The notes beneath the pieces were generated by a model. That model ran no database searches and was not told where the DNA came from. It saw only the letters and a list, made by a program, of their open reading frames with translations. Shown one piece after another: positions 8,667 to 64,000 of a stretch of DNA of 64,000 nt. The stretch spans positions 62,001 through 126,000 of the forward strand of contig JAITLO010000008.1 in the NCBI GenBank assembly GCA_031277855.1. The letters are read 5' to 3'. Origin of the DNA: Acidovorax sp. Its GTDB lineage: Bacteria > Pseudomonadota > Gammaproteobacteria > Burkholderiales > Burkholderiaceae_C. Every line of letters starts with the position of its first letter. The stretch's first letter is position 1. Both the position numbers and the translations under genes were made by a program.

Positions 8667-8732
8667 CCTCATGGGTGACGCAAGCGTGCGTGCTTGTCCA
8701 TCCCCTGTTTTTACCGAAGGAACTTGTTTTTT

Positions 8733-33920: not shown

Positions 33921-33945
33921 GTGCAGCCCTTTCTGGGCAGGCACT

Positions 33946-34016
33946 GGCAGCTATTTTTTGAATTTGATAGCTGCCAATGCGCTTGGGTATTGCGTGAAAA
34001 GCCGATTTGCTTGGTA
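33946..34016. repeat. Comamonadaceae-type palindromic repeat in the ttrC-ttrA gap
   Basis: The perfect 9-bp arms ggcagctat/atagctgcc (33946-33975) are followed by AATGCGCTTGGGTATTGCG. This resembles a short palindromic repeat I associate with Acidovorax, Polaromonas and Comamonas genomes. A related segment is carried inside purL at 38292-38326. Confidence 0.6.
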
Positions 34017-34032
34017 TTTCTAGAGCCAACAC

Positions 34033-35073: not shown

Positions 35074-35086
35074 GAGGGGCTCCTTC

Positions 35087-48230: not shown

Positions 48231-49121
48231 TTAGCTGTGCCGTGCGGCTTCGTTCCAGAACGCCCGTGCCACGGGGGAGAGACGGTTGGAGTTCTGGCAG
48301 GCCAGTGCGATATAGCGCTGGGTGGTGGGCGTCATGGGCTTGTAGACGATGCCGGGAATGGCATCCGGGAGTGCCAACCTGGCCAGGATGGACACCCCAT
48401 GCCCATCGGCCACATATTGCAAAATGGATGTGATCTGGTGCAGCTCGTGGGCAATGCGGGGCTTGAGGTCATGCTTGAGCAGCAAGCGGTAGATCAGCGG
48501 CTTGGAGCCTGCCCGGGTGAGCAAGAACGGGTATTCCATCAGCTCGCTCAGTTGCACCATGCTTTGCTGTGCCAGAGGGTGGCCTTCGGGCAGCACGGCC
48601 ACGAGTTCGTCCATGGCCAGGGTCTGGGTTTCCAGCTCGAGCTTGGGCAGTGGGACCACGGCCAGTTCGATGCGGTGCTCCATCAGGTCCAGGCTGACCT
48701 GGTCCTCGGGCTTTTCGATGATGTGTACATCGACGCCGGGGTGTTTGGCGCGAAAGGCCTTGAGTATCGGTGGCAAGGCCTTGAGGGTGCCGCTGGCACC
48801 GAACGAGCCTATGTGCAGCTGCCCGGTCTTGAGCTCGGCGTCCGAGCGGGCGATGGACTTCATCAGCTGCATGGAGGCAAACACCTCCTTGGCCAGCGGA
48901 AGAATGCGTTCGCCGGCATAGGTCAGCGGTGCGCCGGGCGCGCTGCGGTCTATCAGCTGGGCCCCGAGTGCAGACTCCAGGGCACGCAGCGCATGGCTGG
49001 TGGCAGAGGGCGAGAGGCCCAGCTTGGCACCCGCGCTGGAGATGCCGTCCGCCTGCACCAGCGCCAGCAGCAGCTCTAGCTGCTTGAGTGTGGGGAAATC
49101 ATGCTTGCCGCCCAGATTCAC
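48231..49121 (-). CDS. LysR-family regulator of the 3-mercaptopropionate cluster
   Basis: This 296-residue regulator has an N-terminal winged helix-turn-helix (about 8-68: LKQLELLLALVQADGISSAGAKLG, SPSATSHALRALESALG) and a periplasmic-binding-like effector domain (about 95-290). It lies downstream of act-acd-mdo on the same strand, 176 bases after mdo, so it may be expressed separately. Related mercaptopropionate loci in Variovorax also contain a lysR gene. A 12-bp imperfect inverted repeat (ccaaccgc/gcggttgg, 49177-49215) lies in its upstream gap and could be a binding site. Confidence 0.85.
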   Translation of the reverse strand: MNLGGKHDFPTLKQLELLLALVQADGISSAGAKLGLSPSATSHALRALESALGAQLIDRSAPGAPLTYAGERILPLAKEVFASMQLMKSIARSDAELKTGQLHIGSFGASGTLKALPPILKAFRAKHPGVDVHIIEKPEDQVSLDLMEHRIELAVVPLPKLELETQTLAMDELVAVLPEGHPLAQQSMVQLSELMEYPFLLTRAGSKPLIYRLLLKHDLKPRIAHELHQITSILQYVADGHGVSILARLALPDAIPGIVYKPMTPTTQRYIALACQNSNRLSPVARAFWNEAARHS

Positions 49122-49297
49122 AGTGTCCTGTCCCTTTCGCGCTCACCGCTTCGGCACTTGCCGCAGCGTATGGCGTTTGTCTCCAACCGCTCCCATGGCT
49201 GGATGGGGCGGTTGGATGGTACAAGATACTGTTGGCGCAAAGCACTGCAAAAAAGCGATGGGGCCGTGCTTTGGCCAGCACGAGAGATGCGAGGAAC

Positions 49298-49879
49298 TCA
49301 GGCCGCCTTCAATTCGGCTTCATTGGAGTAGCCGGAGATAAAGGGCTTGCGCTCGCCCGTGTCTTCCACGAACACATGGCGCGAGATGCGGCCTATGTTG
49401 CCCCCGTAGACATGGATGCTGATGGAGACGCGGTCGTCATAGAAATTGGAGACGCGGTGGATGTCGCCTATGGTGGGCGAGACGCAGTCCACATCGCCGG
49501 GGTTGAGCTGCTCCGTCCCCAGTGAGCGCATGCTGCGGCCATCGTCTGCGGGCTCGAACAATTCGCCGACTTCGCAGCCACGCATCATGCCGATCAGAGC
49601 CCATACCGTGTGGTTGTGTATGGGCGTCTTCTGGCCGGGGCCCCAGACAAAGCTCACCACCGAGAAGCGATCCTGGGGATCGGCATGCAGCAGGTACTGC
49701 TGGTAGTACTGCGGGTCGGGCTTGGCATAGCGCTCGGGCAGCCAGTCGTCTTGCGCAATCAGCTGCTTGAGCACGGCGCCGCCTTGCTGGAGGATGGTGG
49801 GCTCGTCACCCTGGTGCTGATCGATCACCCGGGTGAAGTCGGCGACGAATTGCTGGAATTTTTCTGGCATGGCCATCAT
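49298..49879 (-). CDS. mdo: Thiol dioxygenase, probable 3-mercaptopropionate dioxygenase
   Basis: This 193-residue cupin of the cysteine dioxygenase type uses Fe(II) held by His88 and His90 (PIHNHTVWALIG) and His141 (DIHRVSN). Oxygen converts a thiol to a sulfinate. The residue corresponding to the substrate-binding arginine of cysteine dioxygenase appears to be glutamine (in YYQQYLLHAD, about 58-67), which in the known family marks 3-mercaptopropionate dioxygenase. SISIHVYGG gives the His-Tyr pair of the catalytic network. An AAAGGAG site precedes the ATG. It follows acd by 36 bases in act-acd-mdo, consistent with making 3-sulfinopropionate for the next step. Confidence 0.85.
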   Translation of the reverse strand: MMAMPEKFQQFVADFTRVIDQHQGDEPTILQQGGAVLKQLIAQDDWLPERYAKPDPQYYQQYLLHADPQDRFSVVSFVWGPGQKTPIHNHTVWALIGMMRGCEVGELFEPADDGRSMRSLGTEQLNPGDVDCVSPTIGDIHRVSNFYDDRVSISIHVYGGNIGRISRHVFVEDTGERKPFISGYSNEAELKAA

Positions 49880-49915
49880 GGTGTGTCTCCTTTGTTGTTG
49901 TCGGTGCGCTAGGTC

Positions 49916-51112
49916 TCAGGCCTTGCTCTGCGCGACGTAGCCATCGCGAGTTTGCGGCAATTTCATATTGAGCAGCTTGGATGCCACCTGGGTGCGCAGG
50001 ATTTGCGCCGTACCCCCGGCAATGGTGAACATGCGTGCATCGCGCACATGGCGTTCCATGGGATTGTGGCGGCCGTAGCCCGAGGAACCGTAGAACTGCA
50101 AGGCGTCGTTGGTGACCTTGTTGGCGGTTTCGGCCGCCATGATCTTGGCGCGTGCAGCCTTGTCAATATCGGGGAAATGCTCACCGCTGGCGGCGGCATG
50201 GCGCAGCATCAAACGGGCAGCTTCCAGCTGGGTCGACATATCGGCCAGCATCCACTGCAGACCCTGGAATTCGGCAATCGGGCGGCCGAATTGCTGGCGT
50301 GTCTTCAGATAGGCCATGCCTTCCTCAAAGGCGCCTTGCGCAATCCCCAGGGCCACGGTGCCGGCGCCCACGCGCTGCGCGTTGTATGCATTCATCAGCG
50401 AGGCAAAGCCGCGCTGGAGCCCCCCCGGAGGAACGACCAGCATGGACTTGTGCACCCGCAGATTGCGGAACTCCAGATGGGTTTCGGGAATGCCGCGCAC
50501 CCCCATGGCATACAGGCGTCGGCCCACCACGAGCTGGTCGGCCGGGGTGCGGTCGCGCACGCAGATAAAGGCGCCCACGCCCTGGTCCACACCGTCGTCG
50601 AACACGCGCGCAAAGATCAGGTGCAGATTGGAAACGCCGCCGCCTGTGATCCAGTACTTCTCGCCGTTGAGGATGTACTCGTCGCCCTTGCGATCGGCAC
50701 GGGTGGTCATTTCGCTGGCTGCGCTGCCGGCATTGGGCTCGGAGATGCAGATGGCGGGTTTGTCGCCGCCCAGCACCAGCTCTGCAGCGATCTTCAGCTG
50801 CTCGGGCGTGCCATAGGTGGCGATGGCGCCGATGGCGCCCATATTGGCTTCCACGGTGATGCGGCCCATGGTGGCGCAGGCCTTGGCCATTTCCTCGACC
50901 ACGATGACGGCATCCAGATAGCTCAGGCCCTGGCCGCCGGCGCGCTTGGGCAGCGTCATGCCCATAAAGCCGGCATCACGCAGCTTGGCGATGTTGTCCC
51001 AGGGGTATTGCTCGGTGAGGTCGGTGTCGGCAGCCGTGGGGGCGAATGCCGTTTGCGCGAGTTCGCGTGCACGTGCCTGCAGGTCGAATTGTGCTTTGGT
51101 GAGTTCGTACAT
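49916..51112 (-). CDS. acd: Acyl-CoA dehydrogenase homologue, probable 3-sulfinopropionyl-CoA desulfinase
   Basis: This 398-residue flavoprotein has the acyl-CoA dehydrogenase fold: ICISEPNAGSAASEMTTRA, LNGEKYWITGG, GRPIAEFQGLQWMLADM and a C-terminal GSSGYGRHNPMERHVRDAR. Both positions that carry the catalytic glutamate in dehydrogenases are changed: the YEGT site reads AGGT (IAGGTAQI), and the isovaleryl-type site reads Gln246 (NAYNAQRV). Arg84 (ATMGRIT) is also present. Gln246 and Arg84 are the residues I know from the desulfinase of Advenella. The predicted reaction gives propionyl-CoA and sulfite from 3-sulfinopropionyl-CoA. Start at 51112 with GGAGA upstream. Neighbours mdo and act support the role. 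Confidence 0.88.
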   Translation of the reverse strand: MYELTKAQFDLQARARELAQTAFAPTAADTDLTEQYPWDNIAKLRDAGFMGMTLPKRAGGQGLSYLDAVIVVEEMAKACATMGRITVEANMGAIGAIATYGTPEQLKIAAELVLGGDKPAICISEPNAGSAASEMTTRADRKGDEYILNGEKYWITGGGVSNLHLIFARVFDDGVDQGVGAFICVRDRTPADQLVVGRRLYAMGVRGIPETHLEFRNLRVHKSMLVVPPGGLQRGFASLMNAYNAQRVGAGTVALGIAQGAFEEGMAYLKTRQQFGRPIAEFQGLQWMLADMSTQLEAARLMLRHAAASGEHFPDIDKAARAKIMAAETANKVTNDALQFYGSSGYGRHNPMERHVRDARMFTIAGGTAQILRTQVASKLLNMKLPQTRDGYVAQSKA

Positions 51113-51162
51113 CAATGTCTCCGGGAAAGGGTGGGGTGGTGTGAATGGAATGGGCGGGGCGC

Positions 51163-52356
51163 TCAGTGCTCGCCCAGCCAGTCGTCTAAAACGCTTTGGG
51201 CGTGTTCGTTCAGGCGTGGGGGCGGACGGCGATAGCTGGGTGGGGTGGCAGACATCTTCAGCGGGTTGGCCAGCAGCCTGATTTCCCCGCCTTGAGCCCA
51301 TTCGCAGGGCATGCGCAGCTCGGCACCGCGGGCGATGACATGGGGGTCGTTGAATACGTCTTCCAGGTCGTTGACCGGCCCGCAGGGCACGCCCGCCTGC
51401 TCCAGTGCTTGCAGCCAGTGGCTGCGGGGGCGGGTGCGCAGCAGCTCGGAGATCTGCGGGCACAACACCTCGCGGTGGGCGATGCGCTGCACATTCGTGG
51501 CGAAGCGCTGGTCGTCGGCCAGTGCTTCGGTATCTGCCACCTGGCAAAACCTGCGGAACTGTGCGTCGTTGCCCACGGCCAGAATCATCGGGGCGTCGGC
51601 AGTGGGGAACACCTGGTAGGGCACGATGTTGGGGTGGCCATTGCCCAGCCGGGTGGGCAATTGGCGCTCGGCCAGGTAGTTGGTGCCGGCGTTGACCAAC
51701 CAGGCAATCTGCGAGTCCAGCAGCGAGATGTCGATGTGCTGGCCTTCACCGGTCTTGTCGCGGTGCTGGAGCGCGGCCAGCATGCCCACGGTGGCGTACA
51801 TGCCGGTCATGACATCGGCGATGCCCACGCCCACTTTCATGGGCTCTCCATCGGGAACGCCGGTGAGGCTCATGATGCCGCCCATGCCCTGAATGAGAAA
51901 GTCATAGCCGGGCCGGCTGGCGTAGGGGCCGGTATGGCCAAAGCCGGTGATGGAGCAATAAATGAGGCGCGGGTATTGCGCGCGCAGCTGTGCGTAGGAC
52001 AGACCGTATTTGGCCAGCCCGCCGGCCTTGTAGTTCTCCACCAGCACATCGGCCTTGGCAAGCAACTGGTGGATCAGCTGGCGGCCATCCTCGCTGGCAA
52101 TGTCGATGGCGATCGAGCGCTTGTTGCGATTGGCCGCCAGGTAGTAGGCGCTCTCGCGGGTGGGCGTGCCTTGCGTGTCTGCAATATAGGGCGGGCCCCA
52201 TTTGCGGGTGTCATCGCCTTCTTCGGGGCGCTCCACCTTGATGACATCGGCGCCCAGATCGCCCAGCAGCTGCGTGGCACTGGGGCCTGCCAGAATGCGG
52301 GAAAGATCCAGCACCCGTATGCCGGTGAGTGCCCCCTTGTTTGTCTGCGCTTGCAT
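51163..52356 (-). CDS. act: Class III CoA-transferase, probable succinyl-CoA:3-sulfinopropionate CoA-transferase
   Basis: This 397-residue CaiB/BaiF enzyme moves CoA between carboxylic acids. Family motifs: VLDLSRILAGPSATQLLGDLGADVIKVERPEEGDDTR in part, NRNKRSIAIDI, the nucleophile-type aspartate in GYDFLIQGMGGIMSLTG, and GEGQHIDISLLDSQIAWL. It is the first gene of act-acd-mdo; acd starts 51 bases later. In Variovorax the equivalent enzyme activates 3-sulfinopropionate, which suits this context. An AAGGA site precedes the ATG at 52356; a GTG 18 bases earlier is an alternative. Confidence 0.82.
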   Translation of the reverse strand: MQAQTNKGALTGIRVLDLSRILAGPSATQLLGDLGADVIKVERPEEGDDTRKWGPPYIADTQGTPTRESAYYLAANRNKRSIAIDIASEDGRQLIHQLLAKADVLVENYKAGGLAKYGLSYAQLRAQYPRLIYCSITGFGHTGPYASRPGYDFLIQGMGGIMSLTGVPDGEPMKVGVGIADVMTGMYATVGMLAALQHRDKTGEGQHIDISLLDSQIAWLVNAGTNYLAERQLPTRLGNGHPNIVPYQVFPTADAPMILAVGNDAQFRRFCQVADTEALADDQRFATNVQRIAHREVLCPQISELLRTRPRSHWLQALEQAGVPCGPVNDLEDVFNDPHVIARGAELRMPCEWAQGGEIRLLANPLKMSATPPSYRRPPPRLNEHAQSVLDDWLGEH

Positions 52357-52542: not shown

Positions 52543-52810
52543 AGAACGTGTTCCAAGTCTCTACGCAGTTGCGTTGGAACGCAATCGGGATGAGTTCGAG
52601 TCGATGGGGCGCAGCTTGCACCTGTGTGCAAGCAAGAGACAGCGCGAAGAAATCGCCCGATTTCGCTCCAACCCTTCGGGCCAGTGGCTTTGCGGGCGGT
52701 CTACTGTGTTGCGAATCCTCGCAATAGCACGGCTATTGCTGCGGTGTCGCGCCTTGTATCCCATCCCGCAAAGACACTGGTGCGCCGCGAGGAGACTTTG
52801 AACACGTTCT
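52543..52810. repeat. Hairpin-rich element with 24-bp imperfect terminal inverted repeats
   Basis: Ends AGAACGTGTTCCAAGTCTCT (52543 on) and the reverse complement of 52787-52810 agree at 21 of 24 positions. Inside are perfect stems: ttgcgtt/aacgcaa (about 52569), gcttgcac/gtgcaagc (about 52613), ttgcga/tcgcaa (about 52709) and gcaatagc/gctattgc (52721-52739). It has no coding frame of note. It may be a MITE-like remnant or a structured RNA; its right end reaches the lysR stop codon. Confidence 0.45.
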
Positions 52811-53739
52811 CAAGCTGCAGCGCGGGAACGCGGCGGAAGCGTCTGCGCAAATGCGCGTGCCTCATCCAGGATCCACAGGCGAAAAGCCTCCAGTGGCGCG
52901 CTGTGGCGCATGTTGTTGGGGTAGACGAGGTAGTACAAATCCTCGGCGGGGATGGACAGCGGGTGTGCCCGCACCACGCCGTTGTCCCAGACGTTTTTGG
53001 GTACGAAAAACTCCGGCACCAGCGCAATGCCCAATCCCGATTCTGCGGCGCGGATCATCATGGAGTGCTGCTCGAACCCGACGCTGCGCTCGGGCACGGT
53101 GTCCGGTGGCAGCTGGGCTGCGGCAAACCACTTCTTCCATGACTCCTGGCGTGTGGTGGAGAACAGCAGGGGGAATTTCAGCAAATCGGCGGCTTCTTTG
53201 ATGCTGTCGCCTATCAAGTCCTTGCGCGCGATCACCACCATTTCCTCGCCGAACAGCACCTCGGAAGTGGCCCAGGGCCAGATGGGTTTGCCATGGTGAA
53301 TGGCCGCCTCGAAGTGCTCCTCGTTGAAGGAAAACGGGTTGGAGCGCACACCCATGTTCACACGGATATGGGGGTGCTTTGCATAAAAGCTGGGCAGGCG
53401 CGGGATCAGCCACTCCAGTGAAAACGTGGGCAGCACGGCCAGCTCCAGGCTGCCTTCTCCGCTGCCGTGCACCGAGATGGCGCGTGTGTCCCGCTCAATG
53501 GCGCGCAGCGAGGCCCGAATCTGTTCGCCATACAGGCGCCCGGCCTTGGTCAGCACCACCCGCTGTTTGACGCGCACAAACAGGCGAATGTTGAGATTGG
53601 ATTCAAGGCCGTTGATTTGCCGCGAAACCGCACTCTCGGTCAGAAAAAGCTCGCGCGCTGCCAGCGTAAAGCTTTCATGTCGTGCCGCTGCTTCAAAGGC
53701 AATCAATGCGGCCATGGGAGGAATGCGGTTGCGCAGCAT
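52810..53739 (-). CDS. LysR-family regulator (GcvA-like)
   Basis: This 309-residue regulator has an N-terminal HTH (RIPPMAALIAFEAAARHESFTLAARELFLTESAVSRQINGLE in part as FEAAARHESFTLAARELFL and SAVSRQINGLE) and an effector domain with SLELAVLPTFSLEWLIPRLPSF typical of the GcvA subgroup. It is divergent from the aminotransferase gene at 53951 and shares a 211-base control region with a 15-bp palindrome, so it probably regulates the catabolic cluster to its right. The ATG has no clear ribosome-binding site; the HTH starts normally after it. Confidence 0.88.
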   Translation of the reverse strand: MLRNRIPPMAALIAFEAAARHESFTLAARELFLTESAVSRQINGLESNLNIRLFVRVKQRVVLTKAGRLYGEQIRASLRAIERDTRAISVHGSGEGSLELAVLPTFSLEWLIPRLPSFYAKHPHIRVNMGVRSNPFSFNEEHFEAAIHHGKPIWPWATSEVLFGEEMVVIARKDLIGDSIKEAADLLKFPLLFSTTRQESWKKWFAAAQLPPDTVPERSVGFEQHSMMIRAAESGLGIALVPEFFVPKNVWDNGVVRAHPLSIPAEDLYYLVYPNNMRHSAPLEAFRLWILDEARAFAQTLPPRSRAAA

Positions 53740-53950: not shown

Positions 53951-55183
53951 ATGTACCGTTTTTCTTCCGTCTACCAGAGCCCCAAAGGCTCTCCCATACG
54001 TGCGCTTTACAAGCACCTGAGCGAGCCCGGAATGATCTCTTTTGCGGGGGGCTATCCCGACCCGCAGCTGTTCGATGTGCAAGGGCTGGGTGCCGCTTCC
54101 GAACGCGCTTTTGCCAACAGCAAGGCCTGTCTGGAATACGGCCCCACGGAGGGAACCTCGGGCTTGAAGGAGGCCTTGGTGCAGCTGATGCAGCAAAGAG
54201 GCGTGCACACCAGGCCCGAGAACCTCATCGTGACCACCGGCTCCCAGCAGGCCTTTGACCTGGTGCTGCGCGTGCTGGTGGAAAAGGGTGACAGCGTCTT
54301 CGTCGAGCAGCCCACGTACTCCACCAACATCCAGGCCGTGCAGGCGCACCAGGCCCAGCTGACGGCGGTGCCTGTGACCGCCGAGGGCATGGATGTGCAA
54401 GCCCTCGCGCACATGCTGGAAAGCGCCAGCGCACAAGGCAAAACGCCCAAGCTGCTCTACACCATTCCCAACTTCAGCAATCCCTCGGGGGCGACGCTGA
54501 GCCTGGAGCGGCGCATGCGCTTGCTGCAGCTGGCGGTGCAATACCAGGTGGTGCTGGTCGAGGACGACCCCTACGGCGGTCTGCGCTTTGCGGGTGAGGC
54601 TGTGCCTTCGCTGATGGCGCTGGCCAGCCAGGTCCCCGGCGCCCAGAACTGGGTGGTGCACATGTCCAGCCTGTCCAAGATCGTGGCGCCCGGTCTGCGC
54701 GTGGGCTGGGCGGTGGCGCCGGAGGAAATCCTCAAGCGTTGCTCGGTCGCCAAGCAAAGTGCGGACGTGGGCAGCTCGCCCTGGATACAGGGCATTGCGG
54801 CGGAATACCTGGCCAGTGGCCGGCTCGACACCCATCTGGCCCATATCTGCGCTGCCTACGGCGCCAAATGCCGCGCGCTGGCCCAGGGCCTGCGCCAGGA
54901 GCTGGGCGATGCCATCCGCTTTCACGAGCCCTCGGGCGGAATGTTTGTGTGGGCACGCTTGACGGGCGACATCACCGCTGCCGAGCTGCTGACGCATGCC
55001 ATTGCGCGCGGTGTGATGTTTGTGCCGGGTGCCGGCTTTCAGGCCGATGGCACGGATGACTTCACCCTGCGCCTGTCCTTTGCTTCGCCAACCCTGGAAG
55101 AGGTGGCCCAAGGCTGCAAACGCCTGGGCGAGGCCATGGCTGCAGCGCGGGCCGCAAAAAACAAACAGGCGCAACCTGCCTGA
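53951..55183 (+). CDS. Fold-type I PLP aminotransferase (2-aminoadipate/aromatic type)
   Basis: This 410-residue enzyme of the class I/II aminotransferases resembles the catalytic half of MocR proteins and LysN-like 2-aminoadipate aminotransferases but lacks a DNA-binding domain. Motifs: MISFAGGYPDPQLFD, YGPTEGTSGLKEALVQLM, VTTGSQQAFDLVLRVLV, PNFSNPSGATLS, VEDDPYGGLRF, and the PLP lysine in SSLSKIVAPGLRVGW. It would convert an amino acid to its 2-oxo acid. Start at 53951 from family alignment; ribosome-binding site weak. First gene of the plus-strand cluster, 51 bases before the TPP enzyme. Confidence 0.9.
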   Translation: MYRFSSVYQSPKGSPIRALYKHLSEPGMISFAGGYPDPQLFDVQGLGAASERAFANSKACLEYGPTEGTSGLKEALVQLMQQRGVHTRPENLIVTTGSQQAFDLVLRVLVEKGDSVFVEQPTYSTNIQAVQAHQAQLTAVPVTAEGMDVQALAHMLESASAQGKTPKLLYTIPNFSNPSGATLSLERRMRLLQLAVQYQVVLVEDDPYGGLRFAGEAVPSLMALASQVPGAQNWVVHMSSLSKIVAPGLRVGWAVAPEEILKRCSVAKQSADVGSSPWIQGIAAEYLASGRLDTHLAHICAAYGAKCRALAQGLRQELGDAIRFHEPSGGMFVWARLTGDITAAELLTHAIARGVMFVPGAGFQADGTDDFTLRLSFASPTLEEVAQGCKRLGEAMAAARAAKNKQAQPA

Positions 55184-55233
55184 CAGTCTGGTTGAACAAC
55201 ACACAGCATAAAGAAAATCAAGGAGACAAAAAC

Positions 55234-56775
55234 ATGAACGGAGCCAAGAGCCTGGTGAAGACATTGTTGGCCGCAGGTATTGACACCTGCTTTGCCAACC
55301 CCGGAACCAGTGAAATGCATTTTGTGGCCGCACTCGATCAGGTGCCCGGCATGCAATGCGTGCTGGGTCTGCAGGAAAATGTGGTCACGGGCATGGCCGA
55401 CGGCTATTACCGACTGGCCGGCAAGCCCGCTTGCACCTTGCTGCACTGCGCGCCGGGATTGGCCAACGGCATGGGCAATCTGCACAATGCGCGCCGCGCG
55501 CGCAGCGGCATTGTCAACATCGTGGGTGACCAGGCCGTCTACCACCGTCCTTTCGATGCACCCTTGACGGGGGACACCGCCGGCATGGCGCAAACCGTCT
55601 CTGCCTGGGTGCATACCAGTACCAGCACCCCGGACCTGGGCCGCGACGCGGTGGAGGCGGTGCGTGCCGCCTCCACCTACCCCGGACAGATCGCCACCTT
55701 GATTCTGCCGGCCGATGTGTCTTGGCAGGAGGGCGGTGTGGTGGGCCAGCCCTTGCAGGTACCGCAGCCCCCGGCCATTGATGGCGGGGCGGTGGAGCGT
55801 GCGGCCCGCACGTTGCGGGACAATACCGATGTGCTGATTTTGCTGGCCGGCCCGGCCGTGCTGGCTCAGGGGCAGGCGCTGGCCTGGCGGGTCGCCCAGG
55901 CCACGGGTGCCAGCGTGATGGCCAGCTATGTCACCTCCCATGTGGCGCGTGGCCGTGGCCATATGCAGCTGGAGCGTGTGCCCTACAACATGGAGGCCGC
56001 CATCAAGGCCCTGGAGCGCTTTCGCCACATCATCCTGGTGAACGCCACGCCACCGGTGGGCTTTTTTGGCTACCCCGGCATGCCCTCGGCCCAGCACCGC
56101 AGCGATGCCGTTTTCCATACCCTGTCACGCCCCGATCAAAACCCGGTCGAAGCCTTGCAGGCCTTGGTCAAGGCCTTGGGTGCGCCCGAGGTGCGCATGC
56201 CCGATCCGGGCCCGCGCCCCGAGGTCGTGCGCGGCGCTCCCACACCCGAAGGCCTGGCGCAGACGCTGGCGGCCTTGATGCCCGAAAACGCCATCATCTC
56301 CGATGAGAGCATCTCCTATGGGCGTGGCTTTTACAAGTTCACGCATGCCGCGCCGGCGCATGACTGGCTGCACCTGGCAGGGGGCGCCATCGGTGACGGC
56401 ATGCCCGTGGCCACCGGCGCTGCACTGGGGGCGAAAAAGCAGCGTCGCGTGATCAATCTGCAGGCCGATGGCTCGGCCATGTATTCGCTGCAGTCGCTTT
56501 GGACACAGGCGCGCGAACAGCTGCCGGTGACCACCATCATCCTCAACAACAGCAAATACAACATTCTCATCGGCGAGTACGCCAACGTGGGGGCCACGCC
56601 GGGTGAAACGGCGATGAGCATGCTGGACCTGGGCAACCCCGCGCTGGATTGGGTGCGCATGGCCAATGGCATGGGGGTGGATGCAGCCCGTGCGACCACG
56701 CTGGAAGCCTGCGCCGAGCTGATGACGCGCAGCTTCGACAAGCAGGCGCCCTTCCTCATCGAATTGATGATCTGA
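55234..56775 (+). CDS. Thiamine-diphosphate enzyme, acetolactate-synthase/2-oxo-acid decarboxylase-like
   Basis: This 513-residue enzyme has the three-domain TPP fold: an N-terminal PYR domain with catalytic Glu in GLQENVVTGMADGYYR, a middle domain (about 185-330) and a C-terminal PP domain with the TPP motif ADGSAMYSLQSLWTQ...ILNN. It lacks an FAD-binding requirement visible at sequence level. The size and the HCAPGLANGMGNLHNARRA segment are closer to benzoylformate/oxo-acid decarboxylases than to true acetolactate synthase. Following an aminotransferase and preceding an aldehyde dehydrogenase, decarboxylation of a 2-oxo acid to an aldehyde is inferred. An AAGGAGA site precedes the ATG at 55234. 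Confidence 0.88.
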   Translation: MNGAKSLVKTLLAAGIDTCFANPGTSEMHFVAALDQVPGMQCVLGLQENVVTGMADGYYRLAGKPACTLLHCAPGLANGMGNLHNARRARSGIVNIVGDQAVYHRPFDAPLTGDTAGMAQTVSAWVHTSTSTPDLGRDAVEAVRAASTYPGQIATLILPADVSWQEGGVVGQPLQVPQPPAIDGGAVERAARTLRDNTDVLILLAGPAVLAQGQALAWRVAQATGASVMASYVTSHVARGRGHMQLERVPYNMEAAIKALERFRHIILVNATPPVGFFGYPGMPSAQHRSDAVFHTLSRPDQNPVEALQALVKALGAPEVRMPDPGPRPEVVRGAPTPEGLAQTLAALMPENAIISDESISYGRGFYKFTHAAPAHDWLHLAGGAIGDGMPVATGAALGAKKQRRVINLQADGSAMYSLQSLWTQAREQLPVTTIILNNSKYNILIGEYANVGATPGETAMSMLDLGNPALDWVRMANGMGVDAARATTLEACAELMTRSFDKQAPFLIELMI

Positions 56776-56895: not shown

Positions 56896-58335
56896 ATGAC
56901 TTATCCCGATACGCAACTTTTTATCGATGGCCTGTGGCGGCCTGCATCCGGTGGCGCGACGCTGCCGGTTTTGAATCCGGCAACCGGTGCGGAGATCGGC
57001 CGTGTCGCTTGCGCCAGCCGTGCAGACCTGGATGTCGCCCTGGTAGCAGCGCAGCGCGGCTTCGCCGTGTGGCGCGACATGCTGCCGGTGGCCCGCGGCA
57101 AGATCATGCGCCAGGCAGCGGCATTGCTGCGTGAACGTGCCGCTGACATTGCCCAGGTTCTGACACAGGAGCAGGGCAAGCCCCTGGCAGAGGCCAAGGC
57201 AGAGACCTTGGCGGCAGCAGACAGCATTGAATGGTTTGCGGACGAAGGCCTTCGCGTCTACGGGCGCGTCATTCCCTCGCGGCGCGACCAGGCCATACGG
57301 CAAACCGTGGTGCGCGATCCGCTGGGGCCGGTGGCCGCGTTCACACCCTGGAATTTCCCCATCAACCAGCTGGTGCTCAAGCTGGGCCCGGCACTGGCTG
57401 CGGGCTGCTCGGTGATCGCCAAGGCCGCAGAAGAAACACCGGCCGCACCTGCGGCCCTGGTGGCCGCCTTTGCCGATGCGGGATTGCCCCCGGGTGTGCT
57501 GGGGCTGGTGTATGGCAATCCCGGCGAGATCTCGAGCTACCTCATCGCCCACCCCGTGGTGCGCAAGCTCACATTCACAGGTTCTACCGCCGTGGGCAAG
57601 CAACTGGCTGCCCTGGCAGGCGCGCACATGAAGCGCGTGACCATGGAGCTGGGTGGCCATGCGCCGGTGATTGTGTGCGAGGACGCCGACCTGGACCTGG
57701 CGGTGCAGTCTGCGGGCTTTGCCAAGTTCCGCAACGCGGGGCAGGTCTGCATTTCCCCCACACGCTTTCTGGTGCACGAGAGCGTGGTGCAACCGTTTTC
57801 CGAGGCGCTGGCCCGCCATGCGGCCGGCGTGAAGGTGGGCAACGGCCTGGATGCGGGCACGGAGATGGGGCCGCTGGCCAACCCCCGGCGGCTGGCGGCC
57901 ATGGCCGAGCTGGTGGATGACGCCTTGCAGCAAGGTGCGCAGTTGCTGGCCGGTGGCAAGCGCATGGGCGAGAGCGGGAATTTCTGGGCACCCACGGTGC
58001 TGGCGCAGGTTCCGCAGAGTGCCAAGGTCTTCAACGAAGAGCCCTTCGGGCCCATTGCGGCGATTCGCTCCTTCCGTGATCTGGACGACGCCATCACCGA
58101 GGCCAATCGCCTGCCGTTCGGGCTGGCCGGTTATGGCTTCACCACCTCGCTCAAGCACGCGGATCTGCTGTCGCGCAAGGTGGAAGTGGGAATGATGTGG
58201 CTGAACATGCCTGCCTCCACCAGCCCCGAGCTGCCCTTTGGTGGGCTCAAGGACTCCGGCTATGGCGCGGAAGGCGGCCCGGAGGCCCTGGAGGCCTATT
58301 TGAACGTGCGCTCTGTCGTCGTTCGCAACCAGTGA
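56896..58335 (+). CDS. NAD(P)-dependent aldehyde dehydrogenase, succinate-semialdehyde dehydrogenase-like
   Basis: This 479-residue enzyme is of the GabD-like aldehyde dehydrogenases. Motifs: [26 protein letters not shown] in part, [12 protein letters not shown], the base Glu in [11 protein letters not shown], the nucleophile Cys in [12 protein letters not shown], and EEPFGPIA. It oxidises an aldehyde to a carboxylic acid with NAD(P)+. In this operon the aldehyde would come from the TPP enzyme 120 bases upstream, so succinate semialdehyde need not be the substrate. The start at 56896 matches the family N-terminus [11 protein letters not shown]; the M20 gene follows 10 bases after its stop. 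Confidence 0.92.
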
Positions 58336-58345
58336 GGAGGCAGGC

Positions 58346-59575
58346 ATGCTGAATATGTTGTCTCACGCCCCCCAACCGGAAAGCCCCGATATTTCGCCTT
58401 ATCTGGGAAAGCTGGTCGCGTTTCGCCGCGATCTACATGCACACCCTGAGCTGAAGTTTGAGGAGCACCGCACGGCCGACAGGATTGCGGCCTATCTGGA
58501 GGCGCTGGGTGTGCCTGTGCACCGAGGGCTGGCCCAGACCGGTATTGTGGCCACCATCCAGGGGCGCAAACCCGCTGCCGGTGCCGCTGTGCGTTCCATA
58601 GGCATACGTGCCGACATGGACGCCTTGCCTGTGCAGGAGCTGAACAGCTTTGCGCACAAAAGCAGCCATGAAGGCCGCATGCATGCCTGCGGCCATGACG
58701 GCCACACGGCCATGCTGCTGGGGGCAGCGACCCTGCTGGCCAAGCAGGCAGACTTCGAAGGCACGGTACACCTGATTTTTCAGCCCGGTGAAGAGGGCGG
58801 TGCAGGTGCGCGGGTGATGATGGAAGAGGGGCTTTTCACCCAATTCCCCTGCGATGCGGTGTTTGCCCTGCACAACTGGCCCTCGCTGCCCTCGGGCTCC
58901 ATGGGGGTGCGGGTGGGGGCCATCATGGCCTCGGCCAACCGCTTCGAGATTCGCGTGCACGGGCGTGGCGGGCATGCGGCCATGCCCCACACCACCATAG
59001 ACCCCATCCCTGTGGCCTGTGCCATTGTCGGCCAGCTGCAGACCCTGGTCTCGCGTGCCACGGACCCGCTCGACAGCGTGGCACTCACGGTCGGCAAGAT
59101 GGAGTCCGGCACGGTGGAGAACATCATTCCGGACGATGCTGCCATCTATGGCACCTGCCGCACATTGTCTCCCCAGACGCTGAAGCGCATGCTGGACGGG
59201 GTCGAGCGCATTGCGACGCATGTGGCTGCCGCGCATGGCGCCACGGCCACGGTGCTGTGGAAGCCGGGCTACCCCAGCACCTGCAACACCCGGGACGAAG
59301 CCCGCTTTATGGGCGATGTGATGCGCGAGATGGTGGGCGACGCTTATGCAGACACCGATGTGCAGCCCGCCATGACGGCAGAGGACTTCGGCTTCATGCT
59401 CGAGCAGGTACCGGGCGCCTATGGCTTTATAGGCAACGGTGCCCACGGTCAGCCCGGTGTCAATCTGCACAGCCCGAACTACGACTTCAACGACGACAAC
59501 ATTGCATTGGGCGCCCGCTTCTGGGACCGCCTGGTGCGCCGCTGGTTTGCCACCACCCACAAGGAGACAGAATGA
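58346..59575 (+). CDS. M20-family amidohydrolase (hippurate hydrolase-like)
   Basis: This 409-residue metallopeptidase removes an acyl group from N-acyl amino acids. Metal-binding and catalytic motifs: DLHAHPEL, IRADMDALPV, MHACGHDGHTAML, FQPGEEGGAGARVMMEEG, and GRGGHAAMPHTTIDPI of the dimerisation domain. A GAGGAGGC site lies before the ATG. Its stop overlaps the start of the next gene (ATGA). In the cluster it could liberate the amino acid that the aminotransferase then uses; the acyl group and amino acid are unknown. Confidence 0.92.
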   Translation: MLNMLSHAPQPESPDISPYLGKLVAFRRDLHAHPELKFEEHRTADRIAAYLEALGVPVHRGLAQTGIVATIQGRKPAAGAAVRSIGIRADMDALPVQELNSFAHKSSHEGRMHACGHDGHTAMLLGAATLLAKQADFEGTVHLIFQPGEEGGAGARVMMEEGLFTQFPCDAVFALHNWPSLPSGSMGVRVGAIMASANRFEIRVHGRGGHAAMPHTTIDPIPVACAIVGQLQTLVSRATDPLDSVALTVGKMESGTVENIIPDDAAIYGTCRTLSPQTLKRMLDGVERIATHVAAAHGATATVLWKPGYPSTCNTRDEARFMGDVMREMVGDAYADTDVQPAMTAEDFGFMLEQVPGAYGFIGNGAHGQPGVNLHSPNYDFNDDNIALGARFWDRLVRRWFATTHKETE

Positions 59576-60561
59576 AAAACCACTTCAACCCACAGCGTCG
59601 CCAGACATTGAGCCTGCTGGCATCGGCCGCAGTCTGTGGTCTTGCCGGAAAAGCGTTTGCCGCAGGCAACTGGCCACAAAAGCCGCTGCGCCTCATCGTT
59701 CCCTATTCGGCCGGCGGTGTCTCCGACATCGTGGCGCGCTTGGTGGCCCAGCGGCTGGGCACGGCACTGGGGCAATCCATTGTGGTGGACAACCGCCCCG
59801 GCGCTGCCGGCACCATGGGCATGAATGCCATGGTCAAAGAGGGGGGCGATGGCCACACCTTCGCCTTCACGCCCATCAGCCCGATCACGCTGAGCCCGCA
59901 TCTGATGAAGGTCGGCTTCGACCCCATGAAGGACATTGTTCCGGTGGCACCGGTCATGTACTCGCCGGTCTATGTCTGCGCCACGGAGGCCTTCAAGGGC
60001 AAAACGCTGGCGGATGCTTTTGCGCAAGCCAAGTCGGGCAGTGTGACCATGGCCTGCCTGGGCTTTGGCTCGGTCGGCCACATCATCATCGAGCAGCTGC
60101 GCCGCCAGACAGGCAGCAACCTGGTTCCCATTCCCTACAAGGGCGACTCGCAACTGCTCCCGGATGCGGTGGGCGCGCAGTTCGACATTCTGTTGATCAA
60201 CCCCTCGGAACCGGTGAATGCGCTGGTGCAACGCGGCAAGCTGCGCATCATCGCCGTGGGTTCGCCGCAGCGTCTGCCTGCCGTCCCCGACGTGCCAACC
60301 CTGGCCGAGCTGGGCCATCCCGATGCCAATATGACTTCGCTGTTCGGCTTTGTGGCGCCGACCAACATGGCCCCCGAGGTGGTGAAGCGCCTGAACACCG
60401 AGATCAACCGCTTGCTGCAGCAGCCCGAGCTGCGGGACCGGGTGCAGAAACTGGACAACATTGCCCTTTCCCAAACTCCAGCGCAGTTCGCGGCAGACGT
60501 GCAATCGGCCTACGAGAAGAACGGAAAAATCATCAAGCAGGCCAATATCAAGGCGGAGTGA
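59572..60561 (+). CDS. Bug/TctC-family substrate-binding protein 1
   Basis: This 329-residue periplasmic binding protein of the tripartite tricarboxylate transporter family starts with a twin-arginine-type signal (RRQTLSLLASAAVCGLAGKA). Then come LRLIVPYSAGGVSDIVARLVAQ, VVDNRPGAAGTMGMNAM, and GHIIIEQLRRQTGSNLVPIPYKGDSQLLPDAVG in part. It captures a carboxylate substrate. No TctA/TctB membrane genes are in the window. ATG overlaps the M20 stop by 4 bases, so it is translated with the cluster. Confidence 0.93.
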   Translation: MKNHFNPQRRQTLSLLASAAVCGLAGKAFAAGNWPQKPLRLIVPYSAGGVSDIVARLVAQRLGTALGQSIVVDNRPGAAGTMGMNAMVKEGGDGHTFAFTPISPITLSPHLMKVGFDPMKDIVPVAPVMYSPVYVCATEAFKGKTLADAFAQAKSGSVTMACLGFGSVGHIIIEQLRRQTGSNLVPIPYKGDSQLLPDAVGAQFDILLINPSEPVNALVQRGKLRIIAVGSPQRLPAVPDVPTLAELGHPDANMTSLFGFVAPTNMAPEVVKRLNTEINRLLQQPELRDRVQKLDNIALSQTPAQFAADVQSAYEKNGKIIKQANIKAE

Positions 60562-60763: not shown

Positions 60764-61726
60764 ATGAAAAATCGCAGACACTACATCGCACTCACACTCA
60801 GCACCTTATGGATGGCCATGCCCATGGCATCCCAGGCGCAGAGCACGCCTTTGCGGATCATCGTTCCTTATTCCGCAGGGGGCAGCGCCGATGTCATCGC
60901 ACGCATGCTCACCGATGGCATCAAGGAACACACGGGGCGCATGGCCATCGTCGAGAACAAGCCCGGCGCAGGGGGCCGTATTGCACTGTCGGCACTGAAA
61001 AGCACCCAGGGAGACGGGGCTGCCGTGGTGTTCGCCTTCAATGGCGTGCTGGTGAACTCCATCGTTTTTCAAAACGCCAAGGACTTCAAGTTCAAAGAGG
61101 ACTTTGTGGGGCTGGCACAGGTCGGCACCATGCCGGCAGCCCTGGCCGTGCCTTATGCGCACAAGGCCCACAACGCCAAGGAGTTCATCGCCATTCGCAA
61201 GCAGGAAGGTGATTTCGTCTACGGCAATATGGGGCCGGGCTCTCTGACCCATCTGGCCGGCTTGCGATTCGCGGCCGCAACCCAGCTCAAACCCAATCCC
61301 ATCGGCTACCAGGGAGGTGCTCCGATGGCGAATGATTTGATGGGCGGCCAGGTGGATGCGGGGGTGGACACGGCCAGCGACTTTGTCGAGCGGCACAAAG
61401 GCAAGAAGCTCAAAGTGCTGGGTGTCTTCGGCAGCAAGCGATTCCCGCTGCTGCCCGATGTGCCCACCATGGCAGAGCAGGGCATTGCCAATGTGGAGGC
61501 CGAACTCTGGCTGGGGTTTCTGGGCTCCAGCAAGGCCAGTGCCGCATTCAATACGCGCTTTCAGGATGCCATTCAAAAGACGCTGGCCAACCCTGCCGTC
61601 AGAGACAAAATCTCCAAGATCATGGAGGTGGAATACAAGGGCATGGCCGATTTTGCCCCTGTGATGGCTGCCGACTTTGCGACCTGGACGCCGCTGATTG
61701 TCGACTCCGGCCTGGTGCAGAACTGA
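60764..61726 (+). CDS. Bug/TctC-family substrate-binding protein 2
   Basis: This 320-residue binding protein has a signal peptide (NRRHYIALTLSTLWMAMPMA, SQAQ) and the family features LRIIVPYSAGGSADVIARMLTDG, VENKPGAGGRIALSALK and the second-lobe NPIGYQGGAPMANDLMGGQVDAG. It is a paralogue of the preceding gene but diverged, so it may bind a different ligand. An AAGGAGG site lies 6 bases before the ATG. The 200-base gap to the first Bug gene may hold a separate promoter. Confidence 0.93.
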   Translation: MKNRRHYIALTLSTLWMAMPMASQAQSTPLRIIVPYSAGGSADVIARMLTDGIKEHTGRMAIVENKPGAGGRIALSALKSTQGDGAAVVFAFNGVLVNSIVFQNAKDFKFKEDFVGLAQVGTMPAALAVPYAHKAHNAKEFIAIRKQEGDFVYGNMGPGSLTHLAGLRFAAATQLKPNPIGYQGGAPMANDLMGGQVDAGVDTASDFVERHKGKKLKVLGVFGSKRFPLLPDVPTMAEQGIANVEAELWLGFLGSSKASAAFNTRFQDAIQKTLANPAVRDKISKIMEVEYKGMADFAPVMAADFATWTPLIVDSGLVQN

Positions 61727-62140: not shown

Positions 62141-62953
62141 ATGCCACAGACAATGGCAGCGATGAGCGTGGATGAGATTGCCGCGCAAATCAGCGATGGT
62201 TGCCGGCTTGCCATGCCGGTGGATTACGCGGGGGTGCCCATGGCCATCGTGCCCGCGTTGCTGCGCCGCGCGCCGCGCAATCTGGATTTGGTGGGCGTGC
62301 CCACGGCCGGCCTGTCGTTCGACATTCTGATCGGCGCCGGACTGGTGCACAGCCTGGAAACCAGTGCCGTGAGCCTGGGAGAGGCGGGCGGTGCGCCCTG
62401 CTTTATGCGGGCCATTGCCAACCGGGCTATTCAGATGAAGGACAGCACCTGCCCGGCCATTCATGCCGGGCTGATGGCGGCCCAAAAGGGCTCGCCCTTC
62501 ACCACGCTGCGCGGACTGATTGGCACGGATGTGCTGATGCACCGCTCGGACTGGCGTGTGATGCAAAACCTGTTTTCGGTGGAGCCCGATCCGGTGGTGG
62601 CGATTCCCGCATTGCACCCCGATGTCTCGGTGTTCCACGCGCCCATGGCCGACCGGGAGGGCAATGTCTGGATCGGTCGCCGGCGCGAGCTGGCAGCCAT
62701 GGCCTATGCCAGCCGCAAGAACTTTGTGACGGTGGAGCGCATCGTGGAGCACCGCCTGCTGGACGACGAGGTCACGGCCGCGGGCGTGCTGCCCGCCATC
62801 TATGTGGACGGCATTGCCGTGGCAGAGAAGGGGGCCTGGCCCTATGGCCTCTGGGGGGAGTACGCACCCGACACGGCCGCGCTGCAGCGCTATGCGCAGC
62901 AGGCCAAGACCGAAGAAGGGTTTCAGCAATGGATAGCGGAGGTGTACGCATGA
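62141..62953 (+). CDS. CoA-transferase subunit A (glutaconate CoA-transferase-like, class I)
   Basis: This 270-residue alpha subunit of a class I CoA-transferase begins with a short helix and MPVDYAGVPMAIVPALLRRAPRNLDLVGVPTAG in part, and shows CFMRAIANRAIQMKDST, FTTLRGLIGTDVL and VFHAPMADREGNVWIG, typical of the A subunit in the glutaconate/3-oxoadipate group. It works as a heteromer with the next gene, whose ATG overlaps its stop by 4 bases. Start at 62141 from an AAAGGAG site. Substrate unknown; the CaiB-type enzyme after it suggests more than one CoA transfer in the pathway. Confidence 0.9.
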   Translation: MPQTMAAMSVDEIAAQISDGCRLAMPVDYAGVPMAIVPALLRRAPRNLDLVGVPTAGLSFDILIGAGLVHSLETSAVSLGEAGGAPCFMRAIANRAIQMKDSTCPAIHAGLMAAQKGSPFTTLRGLIGTDVLMHRSDWRVMQNLFSVEPDPVVAIPALHPDVSVFHAPMADREGNVWIGRRRELAAMAYASRKNFVTVERIVEHRLLDDEVTAAGVLPAIYVDGIAVAEKGAWPYGLWGEYAPDTAALQRYAQQAKTEEGFQQWIAEVYA

Positions 62954-63705
62954 GCGCCGTGACTTTGCGTGAGCGGCTGATCGTCACGATCGCCTCGCTG
63001 CTCGATGGGGCACGCCATGTGGCCGTGGGTGCTTCTTCGCCGATTCCGGCGGCCGCTGCCATGCTGCTGCGTGCGCAAAAGGAAGCGTTGAACGCGCCTG
63101 CCGTGCGCTTGTCGATTCTGGGCTCGGTCAAGCACAACCTGTTCACCAATGGCTCTGCAGAGCTGTTCGATTGCGCAGGACAGGGGCGAATCGATGCCTT
63201 TTTTCTGGGTGGCGGGCAAATCGATGGCCAGGGCAATATCAACCTGGTGGGCATTGGCGAGTACCCGAACACCCGCGTGCGCTGGCCGGGCTCGTTTGGC
63301 TCTGCCTATCTGTACTTCACCGTGCCCAAGGTGATTCTGTTCCGTGAGGAGCATTCGCCGCGGGTGTTGGTGGACAAGGTCGACTTCATCAGCGCACCCG
63401 GCACCAGCGACCCCAGCGTTTACCGCAAAGGCGGGCCATACGCCCTGCTCACCGGCCTGGGGCTGTTCATGTTCGATCCGCAGCTGGCGCGCTTCCGCCT
63501 GGTGCATATGCACCCCGGCCATACGCTGGACGAGATCCAGGCCGCAACGGGCTTTGCCTTTGATGTGGACCCGCAACTGAGCGTGACCCCGTCTCCCGAT
63601 GCCGCCACGCTGGCGCTGCTCAGGGGCCGGGTACTCCACGAGCTCCAAGAAACCTACCCCGATTTTGCCAAGCAGCTGACCCAGGAGATGGCCCATGCTG
63701 AATAA
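62950..63705 (+). CDS. CoA-transferase subunit B (class I)
   Basis: This 251-residue beta subunit contains VAVGASSPIPAAAAMLLRA, GSAELFDCAGQGRIDAFFLGGGQIDGQGN in part, VGIGEYPNTRVRWPGSFGSAYL and VDKVDFISAPGTSDPSVYRKGGP. In class I enzymes the thioester-forming glutamate sits in the B subunit near an E(S/N)G-like motif; the typical motif is not obvious here, which fits the glutaconate-like branch with the residue elsewhere. It overlaps the A subunit by 4 bases and the next gene by 11 bases, all one operon. Confidence 0.88.
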   Translation: MSAVTLRERLIVTIASLLDGARHVAVGASSPIPAAAAMLLRAQKEALNAPAVRLSILGSVKHNLFTNGSAELFDCAGQGRIDAFFLGGGQIDGQGNINLVGIGEYPNTRVRWPGSFGSAYLYFTVPKVILFREEHSPRVLVDKVDFISAPGTSDPSVYRKGGPYALLTGLGLFMFDPQLARFRLVHMHPGHTLDEIQAATGFAFDVDPQLSVTPSPDAATLALLRGRVLHELQETYPDFAKQLTQEMAHAE

Positions 63706-64000
63706 AACAATGAGTGCTGGCGCGTTGGCCGGCGTGCGTGTGATTGATGCCAGCCGTGTGCTGGGCGGGCCTTTCTGTGGCCAGATTCTGGGCGATCATG
63801 GCGCCGATGTGATCAAGGTGGAACCCCCCATGGGCGATGAAACGCGTGGCTGGGGCCCTCCTTTTGTGGGCGATGCGGCGAGTTATTTCATCGGCGTGAA
63901 CCGCAACAAGCGGGACGTGCCCATCGATATGACGCAGGAGCTCGGCCAGGAGCTGCTGCTGCGACTGCTGGAAGATGCCGATGTCTTCATCGAGAACTTC
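63695..64000 (+). CDS. CaiB/BaiF CoA-transferase, 5' part (cut by window edge)
   Basis: The visible 102 residues include GVRVIDASRVLGGPFCGQILGDHGADVIKVEPPMGDETRGWGPPF in part, then VNRNKRDVPIDMT and the DADVFIENF segment, all standard for the N-terminal domain of class III CoA-transferases. The gene continues beyond the window. The ATG at 63695 has an AGGAG site 8 bases upstream and overlaps the B-subunit gene by 11 bases; an alternative ATG is at 63710. It is the second CaiB-type gene of the window, distinct from act. Confidence 0.92.
   Translation, partial: MLNKTMSAGALAGVRVIDASRVLGGPFCGQILGDHGADVIKVEPPMGDETRGWGPPFVGDAASYFIGVNRNKRDVPIDMTQELGQELLLRLLEDADVFIENF

Follow-up and report, generated by a model that had tools for sequence, protein, structure and literature searches.

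In a 64,000-nucleotide window of Acidovorax sp. DNA (positions 62001-126000 of contig C44 in a 4.77-Mb genome), we identified the genes act, acd, mdo and lysR1 in one minus-strand row. The products of mdo, act and acd very probably form the known route from 3-mercaptopropionate to propionyl-CoA and sulfite, with LysR1 as the probable regulator, at one end of an inherited catabolic island of 18 genes; most of its other genes probably serve the uptake, reduction or release of compounds from which 3-mercaptopropionate reaches this core. In this route, Mdo would oxidise 3-mercaptopropionate with O2 to 3-sulfinopropionate, Act would transfer CoA to give 3-sulfinopropionyl-CoA, and Acd would remove sulfite to leave propionyl-CoA. 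These core steps have been described for Advenella and Variovorax (PMC5373536, PMC6370202). We assign the route to the window because of the score, identity and residues of Acd, the residues of Mdo, and a gene order like that of Advenella.

Acd is 80% identical (316 of 394 residues; 709 bits) to AcdDPN7, a desulfinase of known structure (5af7/5ahs) from Advenella mimigardefordensis DPN7. The next-best sequence in the PDB scores 226 bits. Acd also passes the NCBIfam equivalog model for 3-sulfinopropanoyl-CoA desulfinase (NF042439; 655.8 bits, cut-off 600). An initial annotation, made from the DNA sequence before any database search, had called Acd a desulfinase, with which these results agree; it had also expected the protein to be annotated by default as an acyl-CoA dehydrogenase, which is out of date now that NCBIfam has a desulfinase model. 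The Arg84 and Gln246 that it reported are indeed present (Arg84 as in 5af7), and both of the catalytic glutamates of the dehydrogenases are absent. The YEG motif of the dehydrogenases is AGG in Acd (residues 364-366), with Gly366 replacing the Glu, and AGG is the motif given for the desulfinase 5AHS (PMC8360864). Arg84, Gln246 and Gly366 are found in all 83 of the Acd sequences that we aligned (the window's own, 80 from a contig search and 2 from a search of the order, all at least 55% identical). As a paralogue control, we aligned seven of the genome's own acyl-CoA dehydrogenases (from 20 further matches), and all seven have a Glu, four at position 366 and three at position 246. We considered whether the catalytic Glu had moved elsewhere in Acd and ruled this out: by the alignment to 5af7 and the paralogue control, there is none at the two known positions. 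Acd does retain the fold and domains of a dehydrogenase, but the loss of Glu at both positions, the equivalog score and the identity to a solved desulfinase make it extremely improbable that Acd is a normal acyl-CoA dehydrogenase whose base is atypical. These comparisons support the prediction that acd encodes a 3-sulfinopropionyl-CoA desulfinase.

Mdo is a thiol dioxygenase of the Gln type. When aligned to the 3-mercaptopropionate dioxygenase (3MDO) of Pseudomonas, it has the three-histidine iron site (His89, His91 and His142), the Ser155-His157-Tyr159 triad, Arg168, and Gln62 at the Arg60 position, which bears out the Gln-for-Arg replacement noted initially. The carboxylate of a substrate analogue is held by Arg168 in the Azotobacter enzyme, and the Gln is the mark of the Gln type (PMC8050391). 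The matches of Mdo in the PDB (4qma, 4wvz, 3uss/4tlf and 6xb9) score 216-235 bits, including 217 bits for the Pseudomonas 3MDO and 216 bits for 6xb9, which was deposited as a cysteine dioxygenase type I yet is the Azotobacter 3MDO of the same paper. The best chain, 4qma (235 bits), was also deposited as a cysteine dioxygenase type I, which might suggest that cysteine, mercaptosuccinate or some other thiol is what Mdo mainly oxidises; when aligned, 4qma has the same Gln. A second point that might suggest another thiol is a difference from the Pseudomonas enzyme at position 95 (near position 49600 of the window), where 3MDO has Gly and all 14 of the acd-linked Mdo proteins with at least 60% identity (the window's and 13 others) have Ala. 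(An Mdo-like match in locus L043, with 25% identity and without the Gln, was excluded from this count.) We take position 95 to be the place of the cross-linking Cys in cysteine dioxygenase. We consider another main substrate very unlikely, given Gln62 and Arg168, the linkage of mdo to the desulfinase gene, and the much lower scores of Mdo against mercaptosuccinate dioxygenase (46 bits) and cysteine dioxygenase type 1 (38.4 bits at most). We infer that mdo, which is the sole CDO_I match in the genome, encodes a 3-mercaptopropionate dioxygenase; its substrate in this strain is a prediction.

Act belongs to CoA-transferase family III (PF02515, 446 bits; best PDB match 4ed9), in line with its first description as a CaiB-type enzyme. 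Of the 3-mercaptopropionate route proposed in the initial annotation, the steps of Mdo and Acd are backed by the comparisons above and by gene order, while 3-sulfinopropionate as the substrate of Act is predicted from linkage. LysR1 contains the Pfam domains HTH_1 and LysR_substrate and probably controls the adjacent core genes, which are its predicted targets. All four reading frames lie where they were originally placed. The gaps are 50 bp between act and acd, 36 bp between acd and mdo, and 176 bp between mdo and lysR1, with GGAGA immediately 5' of acd and AGGAGA immediately 5' of mdo.

To describe the neighbourhood of acd more broadly, we used 80 named loci, each with the acd gene and flanks of up to 10 kb (shorter in some). 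These are the best 80 of 575 matches from the contig search, so further relatives exist. Homologs of act (at least 50% identity) are present in 32 of the 80 loci, mdo (at least 50%) in 13, and lysR1 (at least 45%) in 17. This recurrence argues that the grouping of the core genes is not due to chance. Near act, L009, L010, L013-L016, L018, L019, L024, L035 and L096 also have a gene for a thioesterase-like protein of about 150 amino acids (at least 55% identity; PaaI-like by eye), which we did not find in the window or in the 36 kb fetched beyond it.

The initial annotation described a cluster of four genes. These genes are real, but they are only one end of an island of 18 genes that spans about 21 kb (C44:110231-131132) and extends past the end of the window (Table 1). 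We compared 33 genes from the window and its continuation with the surroundings of acd (38 to 90 kb) in seven further genomes, and we counted a gene as matched if it had at least 35% identity across 40% of the gene. G433, G447 and G449 (Diaphorobacter caeni) have all 18 island genes in a single shared order, and none of the 15 genes that flank the island (11 and 4 on its two sides) was matched in these genomes. The shared order is act, acd, mdo, lysR1, tctC, gst and gor, then, all inverted, lysR3, act2, catJ, catI, tctC, tctC, M20, aldehyde dehydrogenase (ALDH), thiamine diphosphate (ThDP) enzyme and aminotransferase (AT), and then lysR2, which is kept in all three. Our genome also has these 18 genes, but with the act-acd-mdo-lysR1 unit at the opposite end of the block. 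Lampropedia aestuarii has 12 of the 18 genes. Ten of them, AT and the ThDP enzyme included, occur in each of Burkholderia sp. OK233 and Trinickia terrae (a 39% match to ALDH in OK233 was left uncounted), along with one of the 15 flanking genes, an ABC ATPase at 38% identity. In Comamonas composti, 10 island genes are together, and their contig holds 5 more at a distance of over 50 kb.

Table 1. Genes of the island and the repeat within it. Positions are those of the window unless C44 is given.
Feature	Position	Strand	Description
lysR1	48231..49121	-	LysR-type regulator, 296 aa, GTG start
mdo	49298..49879	-	thiol dioxygenase of the Gln type, 193 aa; predicted 3-mercaptopropionate dioxygenase
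acd	49916..51112	-	predicted 3-sulfinopropionyl-CoA desulfinase, acyl-CoA dehydrogenase fold, 398 aa
act	51163..52356	-	family III (CaiB/BaiF) CoA-transferase, 397 aa; predicted 3-sulfinopropionate CoA-transferase
MITE-like repeat	52543..52810	.	268 bp, between act and lysR2; inverted ends (21/25 bases; AGAACGTGTTC...)
lysR2	52810..53739	-	GcvA-like LysR regulator beside aminotransferase operon; 246 bits to PRK11139, cut-off 288
AT	53951..55183	+	aminotransferase; start inferred, longest ORF from 53864
ThDP enzyme	55192..56775	+	predicted 2-oxo-acid decarboxylase
ALDH	56896..58335	+	aldehyde dehydrogenase (semialdehyde type); start inferred, longest ORF from 56827; PF00171 510.8 bits
M20	58346..59575	+	M20 amidohydrolase; TIGR01891 353 bits, cut-off 154; PF01546
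tctC a	59575..60561	+	TctC-type solute-binding protein; start inferred; named by eye; kept in island
tctC b	60764..61726	+	TctC-type solute-binding protein; named by eye; kept in island
catI	62141..62953	+	glutaconate-CoA-transferase-like alpha subunit; start inferred; PF01144; PDB 6coj 71, 5mzw 62, 1poi 51 bits
catJ	62947..63705	+	beta subunit, pair with catI; PF01144; PDB 5n03 76, 1poi 64 bits
act2	63695..64000	+	second family III CoA-transferase; continues past window end, C44:125695-126885
lysR3, gor, gst, tctC c	up to C44:131132		after act2, beyond window

A repeat that resembles a miniature inverted-repeat transposable element (MITE) lies at the junction where the order of our island departs from that of its relatives. 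Among the loci fetched, it occurs in three genomes of the genus: our own, G433 (copies at 94% and 93% identity) and C. composti (full copies at 86-89%). Its coordinates are 8717-8984 and 15308-15575 in L095 and 15431-15698 and 19452-19720 in L018 (C. composti). In relatives, copies also lie at other places within the island.

We also noticed genes in the window that resemble tetrathionate reductase (ttrA, ttrC and ttrB; 30744-35884, minus strand). They score below the cut-offs of the Ttr models (for TtrA, 1329 bits against 1750), and their Fe-S subunit passes the cut-off for DsrO (232 bits against 200). We considered whether they might encode the sulfite oxidase SoeABC and dropped this idea, as their best models are TtrABC and the genes are not kept with the island.

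The other island genes may point to the natural origin of 3-mercaptopropionate. The nearest solved relatives of AT (1x0m, 3aov, 1wst and 2egy; 247-262 bits) include 2-aminoadipate and multiple-substrate aminotransferases. The ThDP enzyme contains TPP_enzyme_N and TPP_enzyme_C domains and, with 699 bits, exceeds the cut-off of 363 for NF005760, "acetolactate synthase large subunit". Yet its 46 PDB matches at E ≤ 1e-33 all bear the name benzoylformate decarboxylase (many are variants of one enzyme), and it fails the NCBIfam equivalog for that enzyme (NF005485; 195 bits, cut-off 493). The Glu of LQE and the His of LLH, presumably catalytic by analogy to benzoylformate decarboxylase, are aligned; Thr is at the Ser26 position, and the His281 region lies outside the alignment. 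The best NCBIfam model for ALDH, which is next in the row, is SSADH (454 bits, below the cut-off of 646). Given these relatives and this gene order, AT, the ThDP enzyme and ALDH could convert an amino acid to an acid that is one carbon shorter, which for homocysteine would be 3-mercaptopropionate. (ThDP enzymes that resemble acetolactate synthase are also found near acd in 20 of the 80 loci, directly downstream in 18; the three that we tested were all below the cut-off.)

We considered a complete route that would start from homocysteine, homocystine or an N-acyl form and end in propionyl-CoA and sulfite, although every feeder reaction in it is a prediction. M20 would free the amino group, and GST and Gor would reduce disulfides; AT would then form 4-mercapto-2-oxobutyrate, the ThDP enzyme 3-mercaptopropanal, and ALDH 3-mercaptopropionate. 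In sister loci, a PatB-type C-S lyase acting on conjugates like S-(2-carboxyethyl)cysteine would reach the same end, so that the feeders would be swappable. We propose this full scheme tentatively and think it somewhat unlikely.

The partners of mdo in other loci are relevant here. The catI-catJ-act2 trio is in 7 of the 80 loci, and all 7 are among the 13 with mdo (p = 5.4e-7 if loci were independent, which does not hold). Genes for a PatB-type C-S lyase (at least 60% identity) and a serine/threonine-type transporter are found together near act-acd in six loci (L011, L013, L014, L015, L019 and L024). All of these have mdo except L011, which is cut by the end of the contig; five of the six are among the 13 mdo loci, and none is among the seven with the catI-catJ-act2 trio. 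L010, another of the 13, has neither set. The only pair that we compared to NCBIfam is from L015, where PatB is above its cut-off (416 bits against 340) and the transporter is below (391 against 526). We excluded PatB matches of 23-31% identity in L026, L029 and L099 from the count. Our genome has no PatB above the cut-off (best score 121 against 340). The gene content of the PatB-transporter loci suggests that they free 3-mercaptopropionate from a cysteine S-conjugate, and the different gene sets may be alternative feeders that release it from sulfur amino acids, here possibly homocysteine. Separately, three of the mdo-acd loci have a gene for a BisC-type molybdopterin S/N-oxide reductase (L019 15572-17878, L021 16756-19092 and L030 14729-12459); the L019 protein, the only one tested, scores 942 bits against a cut-off of 1018.

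Several observations weigh against parts of our reading. In the core, Act is below every NCBIfam cut-off, and for Burkholderia sp. OK233 and Trinickia terrae the DNA fetched yielded act2 but no act at 50% identity or above. Propionyl-CoA could enter the methylcitrate route, for which 2-methylcitrate synthase and PrpF are above their cut-offs in our genome; the PrpB candidate is below (284 bits against 354), so the cycle is only partly confirmed. A search with PF00174 gave one match above the cut-off, and no sulfite oxidase was assigned. Genes like mdo are in 14 of the 53 genomes of the genus (our own included), as compared to 4 for acd, and most are in genomes without acd. In L038, catJ stands alone, with no mdo in the fetched flank. 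Homologs of the ThDP enzyme at 74% identity or above are in 16 of the 53 genomes, 12 of which lack acd. In the draft genome of Bordetella trematum, lysR2-AT-ThDP-ALDH is on a different contig than acd, and the AT and ThDP genes of C. composti are among those over 50 kb from it. The modules of the island are separable, and this weakens the case that they are feeders.

Such separations would be expected if the core works as stated and the AT-ThDP-ALDH-M20 operon encodes an unrelated amino-acid pathway that is carried along with it. The solitary ThDP genes within the genus fit this explanation, as does G285, which has a 56% match to AT and neither acd nor any other island gene within the fetched 19 kb. 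Also, when we searched 29 acd-bearing genomes with the ThDP enzyme, 22 had a match at E ≤ 1e-100 and 7 did not, and just 10 distinct genomes had a match of at least 70% identity. But in 7 of those 10, the ThDP gene is within 16 kb of acd. (We dropped Cupriavidus neocaledonicus as a further case of linkage because the contigs of the two genes are not of the same length, 103,694 in one case and 156,838 in the other.) Linkage is collinear in G433, G447 and G449; Burkholderia sp. OK233 and Trinickia terrae likewise carry AT and the ThDP gene close to acd, and Lampropedia has the ThDP gene close to it. Within the genus, AT is limited to genomes with acd: homologs of at least 61% identity are in the same 4 of 53 genomes, and there is no other match above 50%. 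No AT of at least 50% identity is beside the ThDP gene in the 11 acd-free genomes that we fetched (of 12). An unrelated passenger pathway is a serious contender, if one that we would not favor. We prefer an island of feeders and core because all 18 genes are conserved where none of the 15 flanking genes is, because acd and AT co-occur, and because catI-catJ-act2 is found only in loci with mdo.

Another explanation is that the island serves the breakdown of 3,3'-dithiodipropionate or 3,3'-thiodipropionate, with GST and Gor reducing the disulfide and CatIJ and Act2 handling CoA esters. Gor passes one glutathione reductase model (559.7 bits, cut-off 480) and is below another (TIGR01424; 580.9 against 606), and the nearest model for GST, below its cut-off, is the GSH-dependent disulfide oxidoreductase. 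In Variovorax paradoxus TBEA6, the IlvX and semialdehyde dehydrogenase proteins (the latter within the cluster by locus tag) are reported to be more common on thiodipropionate and 3-sulfinopropionate than on gluconate, and the authors note that the abundance of IlvX may reflect its position in the cluster (PMC6370202). According to the same source, deletion of ilvX left growth on thiodipropionate unchanged. This explanation would also leave the AT, decarboxylase and M20 genes without a use, and we recognised no enoyl-CoA hydratase in the 18-gene island. We think it unlikely. The abundance of IlvX and the semialdehyde dehydrogenase would be compatible with a role upstream of 3-mercaptopropionate, as we propose for the ThDP enzyme and ALDH.

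Besides the 4 of 53 genomes from the genus, where acd is above the cut-off, 3 of 399 genomes sampled from the order have acd. This rare and patchy distribution fits horizontal transfer of the core. Among the 80 loci, L037-L088 are 52 loci chiefly from alpha- and gammaproteobacterial assemblies. None of them has mdo at 50% identity or above, and 43 also lack act at 50% or above in the fetched flanks, some of which are short. All ten of the Acd proteins that we tested from these loci pass the desulfinase cut-off, and act is present in three of the ten. In two distant phyla, Acd from Streptomyces coffeae (L029) and from a planctomycete bin (L037) is 76% and 70% identical to a betaproteobacterial protein, which could reflect either transfer or contamination.

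If the companions of mdo and acd are feeders, then they are concrete and testable candidates for the formation of 3-mercaptopropionate in bacteria. According to a 2026 paper on Pseudomonas protegens, no enzymes that make 3-mercaptopropionate had yet been reported, and dimethylsulfoniopropionate, methionine and homocysteine are precursors that have been suggested (PMC12947264); its reference list includes a study from 2016 on how Methanocaldococcus jannaschii makes 3-mercaptopropionate. Our proposal, if true, would tie a route that has been studied for industry (for polythioester precursors) to the natural turnover of sulfur amino acids, and 3-mercaptopropionate would be a shared meeting point of their breakdown.

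The core mdo-act-acd is of an already known kind. For the 18-gene island, with its own order and non-overlapping sets of partners, we met no description in the literature that we searched, which did not cover the primary desulfinase papers. According to a figure legend, the dithiodipropionate cluster of Advenella mimigardefordensis DPN7 is lysR-act-acd-mdo-ahpD-tctC-tctC, beside prp genes (PMC5373536). Our locus shares with it the act-acd-mdo order and nearby LysR and TctC genes, as well as the highly similar Acd. Unlike in Advenella, lysR1 comes after mdo and our prp genes are on another contig, and AT, the ThDP enzyme, ALDH, M20, GST, Gor, CatIJ and Act2 go beyond the listed Advenella genes. 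In Advenella, growth on dithiodipropionate was impaired when the LysR and Xre genes near the cluster were both deleted; because the double mutant is also listed without growth on propionate, the effect of LysR alone is not separable (PMC5373536). Relative to the 3MDOs of Pseudomonas and Azotobacter (4tlf and 6xb9), Mdo has the same Gln-type site and Arg168 and differs by its Ala at position 95. The thiodipropionate cluster of V. paradoxus TBEA6 (VPARA_05440-05600) includes mdo, act, acdA, a ThDP gene annotated as IlvX and, in the locus-tag range, the semialdehyde dehydrogenase. Enoyl-CoA hydratases, a crotonase and acyl-CoA dehydrogenases set it apart from our island, and we liken its IlvX to our ThDP enzyme by annotation only.

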